Part shown: in pieces, positions 4,940 to 28,417 of the stretch
How positions within the stretch are numbered: the stretch's first letter is position 1
Layout: each line of letters begins with the position of its first letter
Assembly (NCBI RefSeq): GCF_016862895.1
Contig: NZ_BONV01000002.1
Coordinates: forward strand, 1-64,000
DNA from: Planotetraspora kaengkrachanensis
Lineage (GTDB): Bacteria; Actinomycetota; Actinomycetes; Streptosporangiales; Streptosporangiaceae
Length of the DNA: 64,000 bases
Reading direction: 5' to 3'
Program-made: the position numbers and the translations under genes
The notes under the pieces: generated by a model
What the model was told of the DNA's origin: nothing
Database searches by the model: none
The model's input: the letters and a program-made list of their open reading frames with translations, nothing else

Positions 4940-5053
4940 TCAAGGAGGAAATGAAGAGCGGCATCGGGGGGTGCTGATCCATGACCGCCGGCCGACGCAT
5001 TCGATGATCAACGAGCCGCGGCCAGCCCCCGGCATTCGAGTACGGAGATCAGC

Positions 5054-23276: not shown

Positions 23277-23876
23277 GTGACCGCCGGGACTGGGCACGGC
23301 TACGAGAAGGGCCGTGCGAAGCGACGCGAGATCATCGACCGCGCCATGGCGTCGTTCGGCGAGGTCGGTTACCGCGGCGCCTCCCTGCGCGAGATCGCGG
23401 CCCGCTGTGGCATCTCCCATCCCGGCCTGCTGCACCACTTCCCGACCAAGGAGTCGCTGCTGCTCGCTGTGCTCAGGCACCGCGACGAGGCGGACGGCCG
23501 ATGGCTGGCCGCCGACGAGGCCACCGGCCTGGAGGCGCTGCGCCGGCTGGTCGGCCTCGTCGCGCTGAACGCCACGCGCCGGGGCATCGTCGAGTTGTTC
23601 GCCGTGCTGTCCGCCGAGGCGACGTCGGCCACGCATCCGGCCCACGACTACTTCGTCGACCGTTACCGCACGTCGGTGGCGTCCTTCGAGGTGGCCTACA
23701 CGCGGGCTCACGACGAGGGGGTCCTGCGGCCCGGCATCGATCCTCGTACGGCGGGGCGCCAGCTCGTCGCCCTCATGGACGGCCTGCAGGTCCAGTGGCT
23801 GCTCGACGACTCCGCGACGGACATGGCCGAGGTCGTCAGGGCCCACGTCCAGGCTCAACTGACCGTGCCGCTGTGA
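23277..23876 (+). CDS. TetR-family regulator
   Basis: A 199-residue repressor with N-terminal TetR helix-turn-helix (about residues 15-60, FGEVGYRGASLREIAARCGI, then LLHHFPTKESLL) and an all-helical ligand domain. GTG at 23277 has a purine-rich GGAAAGAG/GGAG region upstream; TTG at 23247 is possible. It probably binds the palindrome at 23207 and controls the divergent MFS gene. Its last codons lie in a 14-bp tandem repeat. Confidence 0.88.
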   Translation: MTAGTGHGYEKGRAKRREIIDRAMASFGEVGYRGASLREIAARCGISHPGLLHHFPTKESLLLAVLRHRDEADGRWLAADEATGLEALRRLVGLVALNATRRGIVELFAVLSAEATSATHPAHDYFVDRYRTSVASFEVAYTRAHDEGVLRPGIDPRTAGRQLVALMDGLQVQWLLDDSATDMAEVVRAHVQAQLTVPL

Positions 23877-23914
23877 CCGTGCCGCTGTGACTGTGCCGCT
23901 GTGACCGTGCCGTT
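23861..23914 (+). repeat. 14-bp tandem repeat over the tetR stop codon
   Basis: The unit CTGTGACCGTGCCG is repeated about four times with small changes, starting in the final tetR codons and running past the stop. Because the unit contains TGA, expansion would not lengthen the protein. Confidence 0.75.
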
Positions 23915-23984
23915 GTGAGCGCCCAGGTGGGGCCCTTCTGAGCAACCCCGCGGCTTCTCCCGGTAGATCCGACCGCTTGCCGGA

Positions 23985-24000
23985 ATACCCTAGGGGGGTA
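23985..24000. promoter_or_regulatory. CsoR operator
   Basis: ATACCCTAGGGGGGTA, a GC-tract pseudo-palindrome with TACCC and GGGTA arms, is the kind of site recognised by CsoR repressors. It lies 41-56 bases before csoR. Confidence 0.65.
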
Positions 24001-24040: not shown

Positions 24041-24322
24041 ATGGCCGGATACACACACAGTAAGGACGACCACCTCAGGCGGCTGCGCCGCATCGAGGGT
24101 CAGGTCCGCGGCCTGGAGCGGATGGTCGAAGAGGACAAGTACTGCATCGACGTCCTCACCCAGGTGTCGGCCGCCAACAGGGCGCTGCAGGCCTTCGCGC
24201 TGGAGTTGCTCGAAGAGCATCTGGCGCACTGCGTCGCCGACGCCGTCGCCAAGGGAGGCGCCGAGGCCGACGCCAAGGTCAAAGAAGCCTCCGACGCCAT
24301 CGCCCGCCTTGTCCGTTCCTGA
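24041..24322 (+). CDS. csoR: copper-sensing repressor CsoR
   Basis: A 93-residue all-helical CsoR/RcnR-family repressor. The Cu(I) ligand set is intact: Cys35 (KYCIDVL), His60 and Cys64 (EEHLAHC), and the N-terminal HLRRLRRIEGQVRGLERM region is the conserved DNA-binding/tetramer surface. Cu(I) binding releases the operator. First gene of a copper operon with copZ, a secreted protein and copA. The operator lies directly upstream. Confidence 0.92.
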   Translation: MAGYTHSKDDHLRRLRRIEGQVRGLERMVEEDKYCIDVLTQVSAANRALQAFALELLEEHLAHCVADAVAKGGAEADAKVKEASDAIARLVRS

Positions 24323-24357: not shown

Positions 24358-24570
24358 ATGACCACCGCGACCTACACCGTCAACGGCATGACCTGCGGCC
24401 ACTGTGTCTCATCTGTCACGGAGGAGGTCGGGGGGATTCCCGGGGTCTCCGGCGTCCGGGTCGACCTCGGCACGGGCCTGGTGACAGTGGAGAGCGACGC
24501 TCCCGTCGACGCGGCGCTGATCAGGAACGCCGTCGTCGAAGCCGGATACGAAGTGGCGGATCCGTCGTGA
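24358..24570 (+). CDS. copZ: copper chaperone CopZ
   Basis: A 70-residue heavy-metal-associated (HMA) domain protein with the Cu(I)-binding motif MTCGHC at residues 11-16. It carries Cu(I) in the cytoplasm, to the CopA ATPase or CsoR. It follows csoR by 35 bases with an AGCAGGAG ribosome site, and its stop overlaps the next start (GTGA). Confidence 0.92.
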   Translation: MTTATYTVNGMTCGHCVSSVTEEVGGIPGVSGVRVDLGTGLVTVESDAPVDAALIRNAVVEAGYEVADPS

Positions 24571-25511
24571 ACGCCCCCGCCAAGCTGGGCGCGTACGGGC
24601 TCGGCCTCGTGGTGATCTTCAGCGCGGCCCTCGGGGTGGGCGGCGCCGTGGGCGCGGTCGGCCCGTCGCCGGCCGGTGACGGCCACGCCGCCCACGCTCC
24701 CTCCTTACCGGCCCGTCCGGCCGCGCAGGTCGTCCCGGCGGGCCTGCAGGTGTCCCAGGACGGCTACACGTTCACGCCGGAGACGACGACGTTCACCCCC
24801 GGTGAGCCCGCCACGTTCCGGTTCACAGTGACCGGACCCGACGGCAGGCCGGTGACCCGCTATCAGGTCGCCCATGAGAAGAAGCTGCACTTCATCGTGG
24901 TCAACCGCGACCTGGGCGGATTCCAGCACCTCCATCCCACGGAGGCCGGCGGCGGAGTCTGGTCGGTCCCCCTGACCCTCCCCCGGGCCGGGACCTATCG
25001 CGCCTTCGCCGACTTCGTCCCGGAAGGCGGCCAGGGGCTCACCCTCGGCACCGACCTGTTCGCCCCGGGCGACCACACCCCGCAGCCGTTGCCCCCCGCC
25101 GTCCGTACGGCCGAAGCCGACGGATACACCGTGAAGCTCGACGGCGAGCTGACGCCGGGCACGTCCAGCAGGCTCACGCTGACGGTCAGCAGGGACGGCG
25201 CTCCCGTCACCGACCTGGAGCCCTACCTGGGCGCCTATGGTCATCTGGTGGCGCTGCGCGCGGGCGACCTGGCGTACCTGCACGTGCACCCGAACGGCGC
25301 GCCGGGGGACGGGACGACCCGCCCCGGGCCGGCGATCGTCTTCGAGGCCGAGGTGCCGAGCCGCGGCGACTACCGGCTGTTCCTCGACTTCCAGCACGGG
25401 GGAACCGTTCACACCGCAGCCTTCACCCTCCGAGCCGTCCCGCCGCCGGCAGGCACGACCCCTGCAGGCACGACCCCGGCCGAGCCCGATCACGAGCACG
25501 GCGGCCACTGA
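24567..25511 (+). CDS. secreted or membrane-anchored protein of the copper operon, function unknown
   Basis: A 314-residue protein with one N-terminal hydrophobic segment ([20 protein letters not shown]) and an extracytoplasmic domain. It has several His-rich spots that look like metal sites: HAAHAP after the membrane segment, [20 protein letters not shown] and a C-terminal DHEHGGH. The two beta-rich halves (about residues 50-170 and 180-290) each contain an HLHP or HVHP motif, suggesting a duplicated cupredoxin- or FixG-like fold. GTG at 24567 overlaps copZ, and copA follows after 26 bases, so a role in periplasm-side copper binding is likely, by inference. No family recognised with certainty. 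Confidence 0.75.
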
Positions 25512-25537: not shown

Positions 25538-27787
25538 ATGACCCCCACCACACACGAAAGACCACCGGCAGCCGGTGACGCGGTCGAACTGTCGATCGGC
25601 GGCATGACCTGCGCGTCCTGCGCCGCCAGGATCGAGCGCAAGCTCAACAAGCTCGACGGCGTGACCGCGTCGGTCAACTACGCGACGGAGAAGGCCAAGG
25701 TGACCTTCCCCCGGGATCTCGACCCGGTGCTGCTCGTCGCCGAGGTCGAGAAGGCCGGATACACCGCCAGGCTGCCCGAGCCGGCCGGGGCGGCGCCCGG
25801 CGCCACGGGAGAGGAGCCGGACGAACTCCGGCCGCTGCGGACCCGGCTGATCACCTCGGTGGTCCTGGCCGTCCCCGTGATCGCGCTCGCGATGGTGCCG
25901 GCGTTGCAGTTCACGTACTGGCAGTGGCTCTCGCTGACGCTCGCGGCGCCGATCGTGGTCTACGCGGGACTGCCCTTCCACAAGGCCGCGTGGACGAATC
26001 TTCGGCACGGCGCCGCCACCATGGACACGCTCGTGTCGCTGGGCACGATCGCCGCGTTCGGCTGGTCGCTGTGGGCGCTCTTCCTCGGTACGGCCGGCAC
26101 CCCCGGCATGACCCACGGGTTCGACCTCACCATCGCGCGCGGCGACGGCACGGGCGACATCTACCTGGAGGCGGCCGCGGGCGTGACGGCGTTCCTCCTG
26201 GCGGGCCGTTACTTCGAGACCCGGTCCAAGCGCCGCGCGGGCGCCGCGTTGCGGGCTCTGCTGGAGATGGGGGCCAAGGACGTCGCCGTGCTCCGCGACG
26301 GAGCCGAAGAGCGCATACCCGTCGACCGGCTGGCCGTGGCCGACCTCTTCGTCGTACGGCCGGGCGAGAAGATCGCCACCGACGGCGTGGTCGAGGAGGG
26401 CTCATCGGCCGTCGACGCGAGCATGCTGACCGGTGAGTCCGTGCCCGTCGAGGTCGGACCGGGCGACACCGTGACCGGCGCGACCGTCAACGCGGGCGGC
26501 CGGCTGGTGGTCCGCGCCACCAGAGTGGGCTCAGACACCCGGCTCGCCCAGATGGCCAGGCTCGTGGAGGAGGCCCAGACCGGCAAGGCCCGGGTGCAGC
26601 GCCTCGCGGACCGGATCTCTGCGGTCTTCGTGCCGGCCGTGATCGCGCTGGCGGTCGGCACCCTGGGCTTCTGGCTCGGCACGGGTTCGGGCGCCGGGGC
26701 GGCCTTCAGCGCCGCGGTGGCCGTGCTGATCATCGCCTGCCCGTGCGCGCTCGGGCTGGCCACTCCGACCGCCCTGCTGGTCGGCACCGGCAGAGGGGCC
26801 CAGCTCGGCATCCTCATCAAGGGTCCGGAGGTGCTGGAGTCCACTCGCAGGATCGACACCGTCGTCCTGGACAAGACGGGCACCGTCACCGAGGGCAGGA
26901 TGACCCTGGTCGACGTCGTCACCGCCGCCGGCGAGGACCCCGACGAGGTGCTGCGCCTGGCCGGGGCCCTGGAGAACGCCTCCGAGCACCCGATCGCCCA
27001 GGCGATCGCACGAGGCGCCGCCGAGCGGGTCGGCGCCCTGCCCGCACCCGAGGAGTTCGCCAACGTCGAGGGCCTGGGCGTGCAGGGCGTGGTGGACGGC
27101 CACGCCGTGCTCGCCGGGCGGCCGCGACTGCTCGCCGAGTGGTCGCAACATCTTTCCGACGACCTGGAACGGGCGCTGCACGCGGCGCAGGACGCCGGCC
27201 GTACGGCCGTCGCCGTCGGCTGGGACGGCAAGGCGCGCGCGGTCCTCTCGGTCGCCGACGTCGTCAAGCCCACCTCGGCCGAGGCCGTCTCCCGGTTGCG
27301 CGCGCTGGGGCTGACTCCGGTGCTGCTGACGGGTGACAACGAGACCGTCGCGCGGTCCGTCGCCGCCGAGGTCAGCGTCACCGAGGTCGTCGCGGAGGTG
27401 CTGCCGGCAGGCAAGGCCGACGTCGTCAGGGCTCTACAGGCCGAGGGCAAGGTCGTGGCCATGGTCGGCGACGGCGTCAACGACGCGGCCGCGCTCGCCC
27501 AGGCCGACCTCGGCCTGGCCATGGGCACCGGCACCGACGTGGCCATCGAGGCCGCCGACCTGACGCTGGTCCGCGGCGACCTGCGGGTGGCGGCCGACGC
27601 GATCCGGCTGTCGCGCCGGACGCTGCGCACGATCAGGGGCAACCTGTTCTGGGCGTTCGCCTACAACGTGGCCGCCCTGCCGTTGGCCGCGCTCGGGCTG
27701 CTCAATCCCATGATCGCCGGTGCGGCGATGGCGTTGTCCAGCGTCTTCGTGGTGAGCAACAGCCTCCGGCTGCGCCGGTTCCGGTGA
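25538..27787 (+). CDS. copA: Cu(I)-exporting P-type ATPase CopA
   Basis: A 749-residue P1B-type ATPase that exports Cu(I). It has one N-terminal HMA domain (MTCASC, Cys25 and Cys28), eight membrane segments, the actuator motif LTGESVPV, the membrane Cu site CPC (Cys401 and Cys403), phosphorylation motif DKTGT (Asp445), the SEHP motif, and hinge [12 protein letters not shown] 25538 has AAAGGAG five bases upstream. It is the last gene of the CsoR-controlled operon and is followed by a hairpin terminator. Confidence 0.95.
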
Positions 27788-27994: not shown

Positions 27995-28417
27995 ATGCGC
28001 ATGTACACGGCGCGGATCATCGAAACACCGGGTGAGGGCATACGCCTCCAGCCCACCGATGACGCCGACGTCCCCGATCGACCGAGCGAGATCAACCTGC
28101 TCGGCCTGGCCGTGGCCCTGGCGCTGGGCAGCGCGGGATACGAACATCACCCCGAGCCCCGGAACACGGAGATCCAGACGATCGAGGCGCTGCTTGAGGG
28201 CACGGCCACCATGCCGTGGCGGTCCCGAGCGGGCGGCGCCGCGGCGCGTGACGGCGGCGAAACCGGGGCCGCGCAGGAAACCGGGGCCGCGCAGGAAACC
28301 AGGGCCGCGCAGGAAACCGGGGCCGCGCATGAAACCGCGCCCTTCATCGTGTGCGAGCGCGCGGATTCCGGAGTGTCGAAATGCCGGGTTGAGCACCGGC
28401 CCGTGGAGACGCCGTAG
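27995..28417 (+). CDS. hypothetical protein with ETGAAQ repeats
   Basis: A 140-residue protein with an excellent ribosome site (AGGAAGG, 8 bases before ATG). The first about 75 residues look folded (TARIIETPGEGIRLQP, INLLGLAVALALGSAGYEHH); after that come four copies of ETGAAQ encoded by an 18-bp DNA repeat, then a short tail with two cysteines. No family recognised. It is followed by the Spo0M-like gene on the same strand. Confidence 0.6.
   Translation: MRMYTARIIETPGEGIRLQPTDDADVPDRPSEINLLGLAVALALGSAGYEHHPEPRNTEIQTIEALLEGTATMPWRSRAGGAAARDGGETGAAQETGAAQETRAAQETGAAHETAPFIVCERADSGVSKCRVEHRPVETP
28259..28330 (+). repeat. 18-bp in-frame tandem repeat, four copies
   Basis: The unit GAAACCGGGGCCGCGCAG occurs four times, with single-base changes in copies 3 and 4 and a partial fifth copy. 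It codes for ETGAAQ. Confidence 0.85.

Follow-up and report, generated by a model that had tools for sequence, protein, structure and literature searches.

Between a copper chaperone gene and a copper pump gene, the window (the whole 64,000-nucleotide stretch of Planotetraspora kaengkrachanensis DNA analysed here) encodes a 314-residue protein, hereafter X (24567–25511, + strand), that is built from two similar domains, each carrying an H-x12-H-x-H histidine triad new in this analysis. The gene order, the coupling to copZ, the internal duplication, the invariant histidine triads, the linkage to copper genes and the operator-like sites described below are results of the computation. With moderate confidence, we propose that X works outside the cytoplasm and under CsoR control, accepting or buffering copper on the CopA path. 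The partner that takes copper released by CopA at the outer face of the membrane is known best from Gram-negative bacteria (CusF and alike), and a conserved, CsoR-controlled protein encoded between the inner chaperone and the pump is a direct candidate for that partner in monoderm actinomycetes. The family of X is uncharacterised and probably widespread; it is new as a defined group, with a Streptomyces member seen before in regulon lists. No Pfam or NCBIfam model scores above its cut-off in the members scanned, and one name could therefore serve for many ‘hypothetical proteins’ encoded in copper operons and on metal plasmids.

The list of open reading frames and profile searches of the window give the operon order csoR-copZ-X-copA, all on the + strand. 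It begins with a csoR-like gene for a copper-sensing repressor of 93 residues (24041–24322, +; PF02583, E 6.5e-31), which scores 151.9 bits against the RicR model NF052430 with its cut-off of 175, and continues with a copZ-like gene for a copper chaperone of 70 residues (24358–24570, +; HMA, E 1.4e-16; 67.4 bits against TIGR00003, above the cut-off of 62). The GTG start of X at 24567 lies inside the copZ stop (TGA, 24568–24570), giving a 4-bp overlap. Downstream lies a copA-like gene for a copper-exporting P1B ATPase of 749 residues (25538–27787, +; E1-E2_ATPase, 8.1e-54; 535.5 bits against TIGR01511, above the cut-off of 397), for which ATG 25538 was taken as the start and GTG 25532 is an alternative. 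These neighbours and the overlap bear out the initial annotation, which had placed X between copZ and copA and in translational coupling with the former. X is single-copy in the genome (96 contigs, 8.77 Mb searched), and its closest named relatives are in Planotetraspora species, with 88% identity in locus L018. Two tandem repeats lie near the operon: a 14-bp unit in 4.2 copies (TGACCGTGCCGCTG, 23860–23918) overlaps the end of the TetR gene that precedes csoR, and an 18-bp unit in 4.4 copies (GAAACCGGGGCCGCGCAG, 28259–28337) lies downstream of copA.

Upstream of csoR, a pattern match locates an unstranded palindrome resembling a CsoR type 2 operator, TACCCTAGGGGGGTA (23986–24000). It is the single match to TACCC-N3..7-GGGTA in the 64-kb window, where shuffled sequences give an expectation of 0.02. 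Its letters fit the TAC-N9-GTA elements with G-tracts that are described for Streptomyces lividans CsoR operators (PMC3902906), and the transcription unit appears to have a type 2 operator upstream, as expected of a CsoR regulon member.

X starts with a hydrophobic segment, approximately residues 8–32 (24588–24662, +), with a best 19-residue Kyte–Doolittle mean of 2.12. Its hydropathy makes it a probable membrane anchor or signal peptide, which is as far as the earlier label ‘exported’ is supported; a comparable segment (mean at least 1.0) is found in 133 of 142 loci. A histidine-containing linker joins it to the domain pair. Domain 1 (residues 60–168; 24744–25070, +) is a predicted beta sandwich with H103, H108, H121, H123 and D149, and includes the HLHP motif (residues 121–124; 24927–24938, +). 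Domain 2 (residues 181–290; 25107–25436, +), with H226, H239, H241 and the HVHP motif (residues 239–242; 25281–25292, +), duplicates domain 1. The C-terminal tail (25437–25508, +) ends in DHEHGGH (308–314) and is mostly disordered in the model. When profiles of the two domains, cut from one family alignment, are compared by hhalign, they match at 99.0% (E 3e-18), with 30% identity over 101 columns and the histidine motifs in register. Judged from these profiles, the two halves are a real duplication, and the paired HLHP and HVHP motifs in two similar halves, as originally claimed, hold up.

The AlphaFold2 model, computed from a 33-sequence alignment, shows two beta sandwiches with pLDDT above 90 over most of residues 60–290, whereas residues 1–58 and the tail are unordered (pLDDT below 50 for 302–314). 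Among the matches listed by Foldseek and VIA-align, the nearest folds are macroglobulin-type Ig-like domains for domain 1 (96 residues, Z up to 9.6) and filamin repeats for domain 2 (94 residues, Z 8.8). Sandwiches of these kinds are common folds, and the predicted resemblance is uninformative on the function of X. Profile matches to ubiquitin chains in the PDB were dropped as artefacts of short repeated stretches. The zinc- or copper-bound structures of Zcp (9mhl, 9mhm) were likewise set aside, with Foldseek TM-scores of 0.21–0.30 that unrelated Ig-like matches equal; zcp is named as a Zur-regulated gene in one Neisseria paper.

Across 63 representatives, obtained by clustering 96 homologues at below 85% identity with the distant match L013 left out, H108, H121, H123 and H226 are present in 63 of 63, and H103, H239 and H241 in 62 of 63. 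In an alignment of 12 homologues with 25–58% identity, which span six phyla (Actinomycetota, Halobacteria, Bacteroidota, Bacillota, Cyanobacteriota and Pseudomonadota), 11 columns are invariant in 12/12 (H108, H121, H123, P124, G142, D149, G222, H226, H239, H241 and F259). Six of these 11 are the triad histidines H108/H121/H123 and H226/H239/H241, and because all six are invariant across the 12 homologues, the two H-x12-H-x-H triads define the family. The 12-residue spacing holds in 23 of the 24 triads; the second triad of the Leptolyngbya protein has 16. The AlphaFold2 model predicts strands 107–113 and 119–122, and likewise 226–231 and 237–240. Hairpin arithmetic on each pair of predicted strands would set the first histidine of each triad beside the HxH, which would suit the binding of one metal per domain at each three-histidine site.

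The invariant paired triads in 12/12 homologues suggest that the family is metal-binding, as the initial annotation had supposed. X has no cysteine and no methionine after the start in its 314 residues, and an all-histidine site of this kind is unusual for Cu(I); zinc or Cu(II) would be bound as easily. The weight earlier put on the DHEHGGH tail finds no support. The tail is present at 308–314, but it is variable in actinomycetes (H309 in 16/63 representatives) and absent from the non-actinomycete homologues in the 12-homologue alignment, and is therefore not part of the conserved core. H277 is also not conserved outside actinomycetes. The invariant triads tell which residues to change.

The link to copper operons extends far past this genome. 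A tblastn search of all homologue loci for CopA-like ATPases finds a copper-type P-ATPase in 68 of the 80 loci of the largest set, 23 of the 29 loci of the relatives set and 13 of the 16 loci of the phylum sample; chance expectations, from 371 ATPase matches in 370 Mb, are 0.97, 0.18 and 0.10 loci, respectively (approximately 1%). The initial annotation had named homologues lying mostly outside copper operons as evidence against it; by these counts, most lie inside them. The 80-locus set leans to close relatives, as only the best 80 of 184 confirmed candidates were taken, and the three sets overlap (for example, L018 is L106 and L019 is L108, both from Planotetraspora). The relatives set consists of 29 loci besides the window; its other listed places, mostly weak, lie outside these counts, and among them the neighbours of G217:C4 and G247:C1 were read. 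L013, which tblastn did not recover, is left out of linkage and CsoR-site counts, and the phylum sample without L013 and L017 has the ATPase in 12 of 14 loci. At 12 of the 80 loci of the largest set, the stretch contains no ATPase, so a dedicated CopA partner is not required.

Two layouts are predominant among 134 loci: 47 have copZ-X-copA on one strand, and in 39 X is divergent from copZ-copA. An overlap of -4 or -1 bp is present at 28 of the 55 loci, the window included, in which copZ precedes X on the same strand. The distribution of X is sporadic: it occurs in 13 of 198 genomes sampled evenly over the phylum (window genome included) and in 26 of 60 relatives. Individual loci vary around the same theme: CopZ-X-CopA-YHS-CsoR in Micrococcus, CopZ-X-CopA-CsoR in Rhodococcus, a P-ATPase near the homologue in Hymenobacter, Nostoc and Halorientalis, and CopZ adjoining the Staphylococcus homologue. 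Some neighbourhoods, such as that of the Priestia homologue, have no copper gene. Among plasmid records, 17 of 140 have a match, and the 15 annotated regions read were picked for spread and are non-random. The Hymenobacter homologue (L099:4659-5606) combines the domain pair with a heavy-metal-binding HMBD domain (PF19335) in one protein; the plasmid cluster around it also encodes a P-type ATPase, a cupredoxin, DUF305 and an RND efflux system.

On the side of the pump, no fixed CopA column separates X-linked from unlinked proteins (21 versus 20 CopA sequences). The outward loop motif GMxH is found in 19/21 X-linked and 12/20 unlinked pumps, a difference that kinship alone may explain. The X-linked CopA of the window (25538–27787) has an outward loop that the second CopA of the genome (L164) is without.

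CsoR-type sites accompany the family even away from the pump. Of 123 homologue loci, counted without L013 and without L017, which is the second piece of the L012 gene, 108 have such a site in the 700 bp before X; the chance expectation is 0.012 per stretch (13 sites in 798,329 bp of the same loci). By class, the site is present at 92 of 103 CopA-linked loci, at 2 of the 3 that have CopZ alone and at 14 of the 17 that have neither gene. The unlinked loci are mostly from Streptomyces (11/17), so not all are independent, and the relatives set is poorer, with a site at 1 of 4 unlinked loci; rows without copA are scattered over several branches of the tree. Read from DNA motifs, the sites at unlinked homologues are the strongest new evidence for a response of X itself to copper, and would make it a copper-response gene in its own right that need not be a dedicated CopA partner. 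At divergent loci, one CsoR-type site may serve copZ-copA instead of X.

One homologue has probably been met before. Streptomyces homologues of X are divergent from copZ-copA, in a place that matches SCO1044 of Streptomyces coelicolor, numbered directly before copZA1 (SCO1045/1046). In locus L002, the sequence that separates X from the divergent copZ contains a match to the CsoR-binding operator of S. lividans copZA1, with 2 mismatches in 29. By position and not by sequence, SCO1044 is very probably the Streptomyces counterpart of X. The naming of SCO1044 among CsoR targets reportedly goes back to Dwarakanath 2012. In the passages that name it, SCO1044 is listed as ‘putatively repressed by CsoR’, with 2.0- and 2.2-fold increases in two comparisons of strains or conditions with altered copper (PMC6414726), and it appears as a ‘possible secreted protein’ that is down (-2 log units) in one developmental comparison (PMC3897704); copZA1 is described as staying basal under the copper stress used (PMC3902906). 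The regulation evidence in these passages is thus mixed, and they give no function, site or partner for SCO1044. A literature search, mostly outside subscription papers, found no published function for this protein. The statement that the role is not described was nearly right; it overlooked that SCO1044 is already listed in such passages as a putative CsoR-repressed secreted protein.

Among known copper proteins, the closest in theme are the YtkA-like proteins (PF13115). X scores 22.3 bits against the Pfam model, below the gathering cut-off of 25.9. All 8 distant homologues scanned also stay under it (best 25.0), and 29 of the 33 members of the homologue alignment match at E up to 1. CtaK/YtkA of Bacillus subtilis is described as an extracytoplasmic, copper-tied protein of beta-sandwich type with a conserved histidine and a histidine-rich C-terminal end (PMC9145763), in line with what is predicted for X, and CtaK and the YtkA domain of YcnJ serve cytochrome oxidase (PMC9145763, PMC13344008); a 2025 paper counts these two B. 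subtilis domains as the only YtkA domains studied experimentally (PMC12362106). CtaK differs in having one domain with conserved histidine and methionine and a role in cytochrome oxidase assembly, whereas X has a tandem pair with H-x12-H-x-H and no internal methionine. MPAHRHG or MDGHAHEG is found in 2 of 7 accepted actinomycete YtkA members and in none of the other 5, and X has neither methionine nor a motif of this type. From these scores, X may share fold and theme with YtkA but falls outside the family by the cut-off. X might be a delivery chaperone for cuproenzymes outside the membrane, acting as CtaK does in CuA assembly rather than in detoxification. The sub-threshold match speaks for this, as do the conserved histidine, histidine-rich end and loss-of-function histidine mutant described for CtaK (PMC9145763) and the functional overlap of the YcnJ YtkA domain with CtaK (PMC13344008). 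The loci read, however, tie X to export pumps and an excess-copper repressor and not to oxidase genes, the hhalign match of the X-family alignment to the 7 YtkA members is at 20% (E 0.0011; domain 1 alone 13%), and the two domains of X stand against one. We regard delivery as improbable.

Other extracytoplasmic copper proteins are further away. The CopC domain of CopC and YcnJ is a copper-binding sandwich outside the membrane, as is predicted for X (PMC12362106, PMC13344008), but CopC is tied to import through CopD and X to export, and the CopC profile is absent from the Pfam matches of X and its homologues up to E 1. The cupredoxin-like fold that the initial annotation proposed to look for finds no support: among the matches listed, the solved structures nearest to X are Ig-like, macroglobulin and filamin-type, and X, with no cysteine and no internal methionine, does not have the type 1 copper ligands (His, Cys, His, Met). 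A weak Cupredoxin_1 match occurs in 10 of the 33 alignment members (best E 0.0035); the ligands speak against a cupredoxin, and by fold the listed Foldseek and VIA-align matches leave room for families outside them. CusF, PCuAC and other periplasmic Cu(I) chaperones use methionine-containing sites. They receive copper at the membrane's outer face, the same role as proposed for X, which has no methionine after the start, no cysteine and no profile match to chaperones of this type. The secreted proteins cg3280 and cg3286 of Corynebacterium glutamicum, compared by description only, lie like X in a copper-export region, and cg3286 is reported as induced 53-fold by copper (PMC3140484).

Overall, the copper-operon link and the metal-binding look of the initial interpretation stand, and the cupredoxin-like fold and the emphasis on the tail lack support. 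In the mechanism we propose, a csoR-copZ-X-copA transcript would be repressed by CsoR until Cu(I) rises, making X a copper-induced envelope protein. Through its N-terminal segment, X would expose a tandem pair of Ig-like beta sandwiches outside the membrane, with a three-histidine site in each domain: H108/H121/H123 (possibly with H103 and D149) in one and H226/H239/H241 in the other. The two sites would bind copper at the outer face, mainly that exported by CopA, and then buffer it or pass it on, while CopZ would feed CopA from inside. We infer that X is placed at the membrane, that copper is its metal and that it accepts copper from CopA and contacts it. In a possible though doubtful alternative, X would be a cell-surface sponge for copper or mixed metals; copper would induce it, but its metal would come from the medium and not from CopA. 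It would sit well with the CsoR-type site kept at 14 of the 17 unlinked homologues and with the histidine-rich linker and tail in actinomycetes, and buffering needs only the two core sites; the strong linkage to the pump across phyla and the coupling to copZ point instead to the export path.

A different reading, which we think unlikely, takes the domain pair as a general metal-binding module for either side of the membrane, with cytosolic forms pairing with MFS transporters and with zinc or another metal bound in some branches. In 9 of 142 loci the homologue has no N-terminal hydrophobic segment, which speaks against the mechanism proposed above; among them are the Staphylococcus form beside copZ, bounded by an upstream stop, haloarchaeal forms and three actinomycete loci near MFS genes. 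In favour of the module reading, segment-less homologues adjoin an MFS gene (PF07690) in the actinomycetes L158 (5150–6010, -), L159 (5565–6422, -) and L163 (5126–6154, -) and in the haloarchaeon L098 (4974–5753, +), and three of the four have a CsoR-type site close upstream. Against this reading, the window protein and most relatives (133/142) have the segment, and the copper-type operators argue for copper. The segment-less proteins with MFS genes are a possible second, cytosolic copper module. Returning to X as an outer-face acceptor, a broader and more tentative proposal, which we would not call likely, is that X founds a family of twin tri-histidine beta sandwiches in actinomycetes, haloarchaea, cyanobacteria, Bacteroidota and Bacillota. 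The family would be the missing outer-face acceptor of CopA copper in bacteria without a periplasm, with its two sites as a relay, and the segment-less branch would have the equivalent role in the cytoplasm, together with an MFS exporter.

Within the segment-less group, the MFS genes of L158 and L163 are alike and that of L159 differs, and a CMD-family gene lies in between in L163. Genes in the loci without copA were called by third-position GC in high-GC DNA, and their starts are rough. In the Micrococcus luteus homologue (L103:4842-4968), the annotated start at 4968 lies too far downstream, and an ATG overlapping the copZ stop restores the membrane segment.
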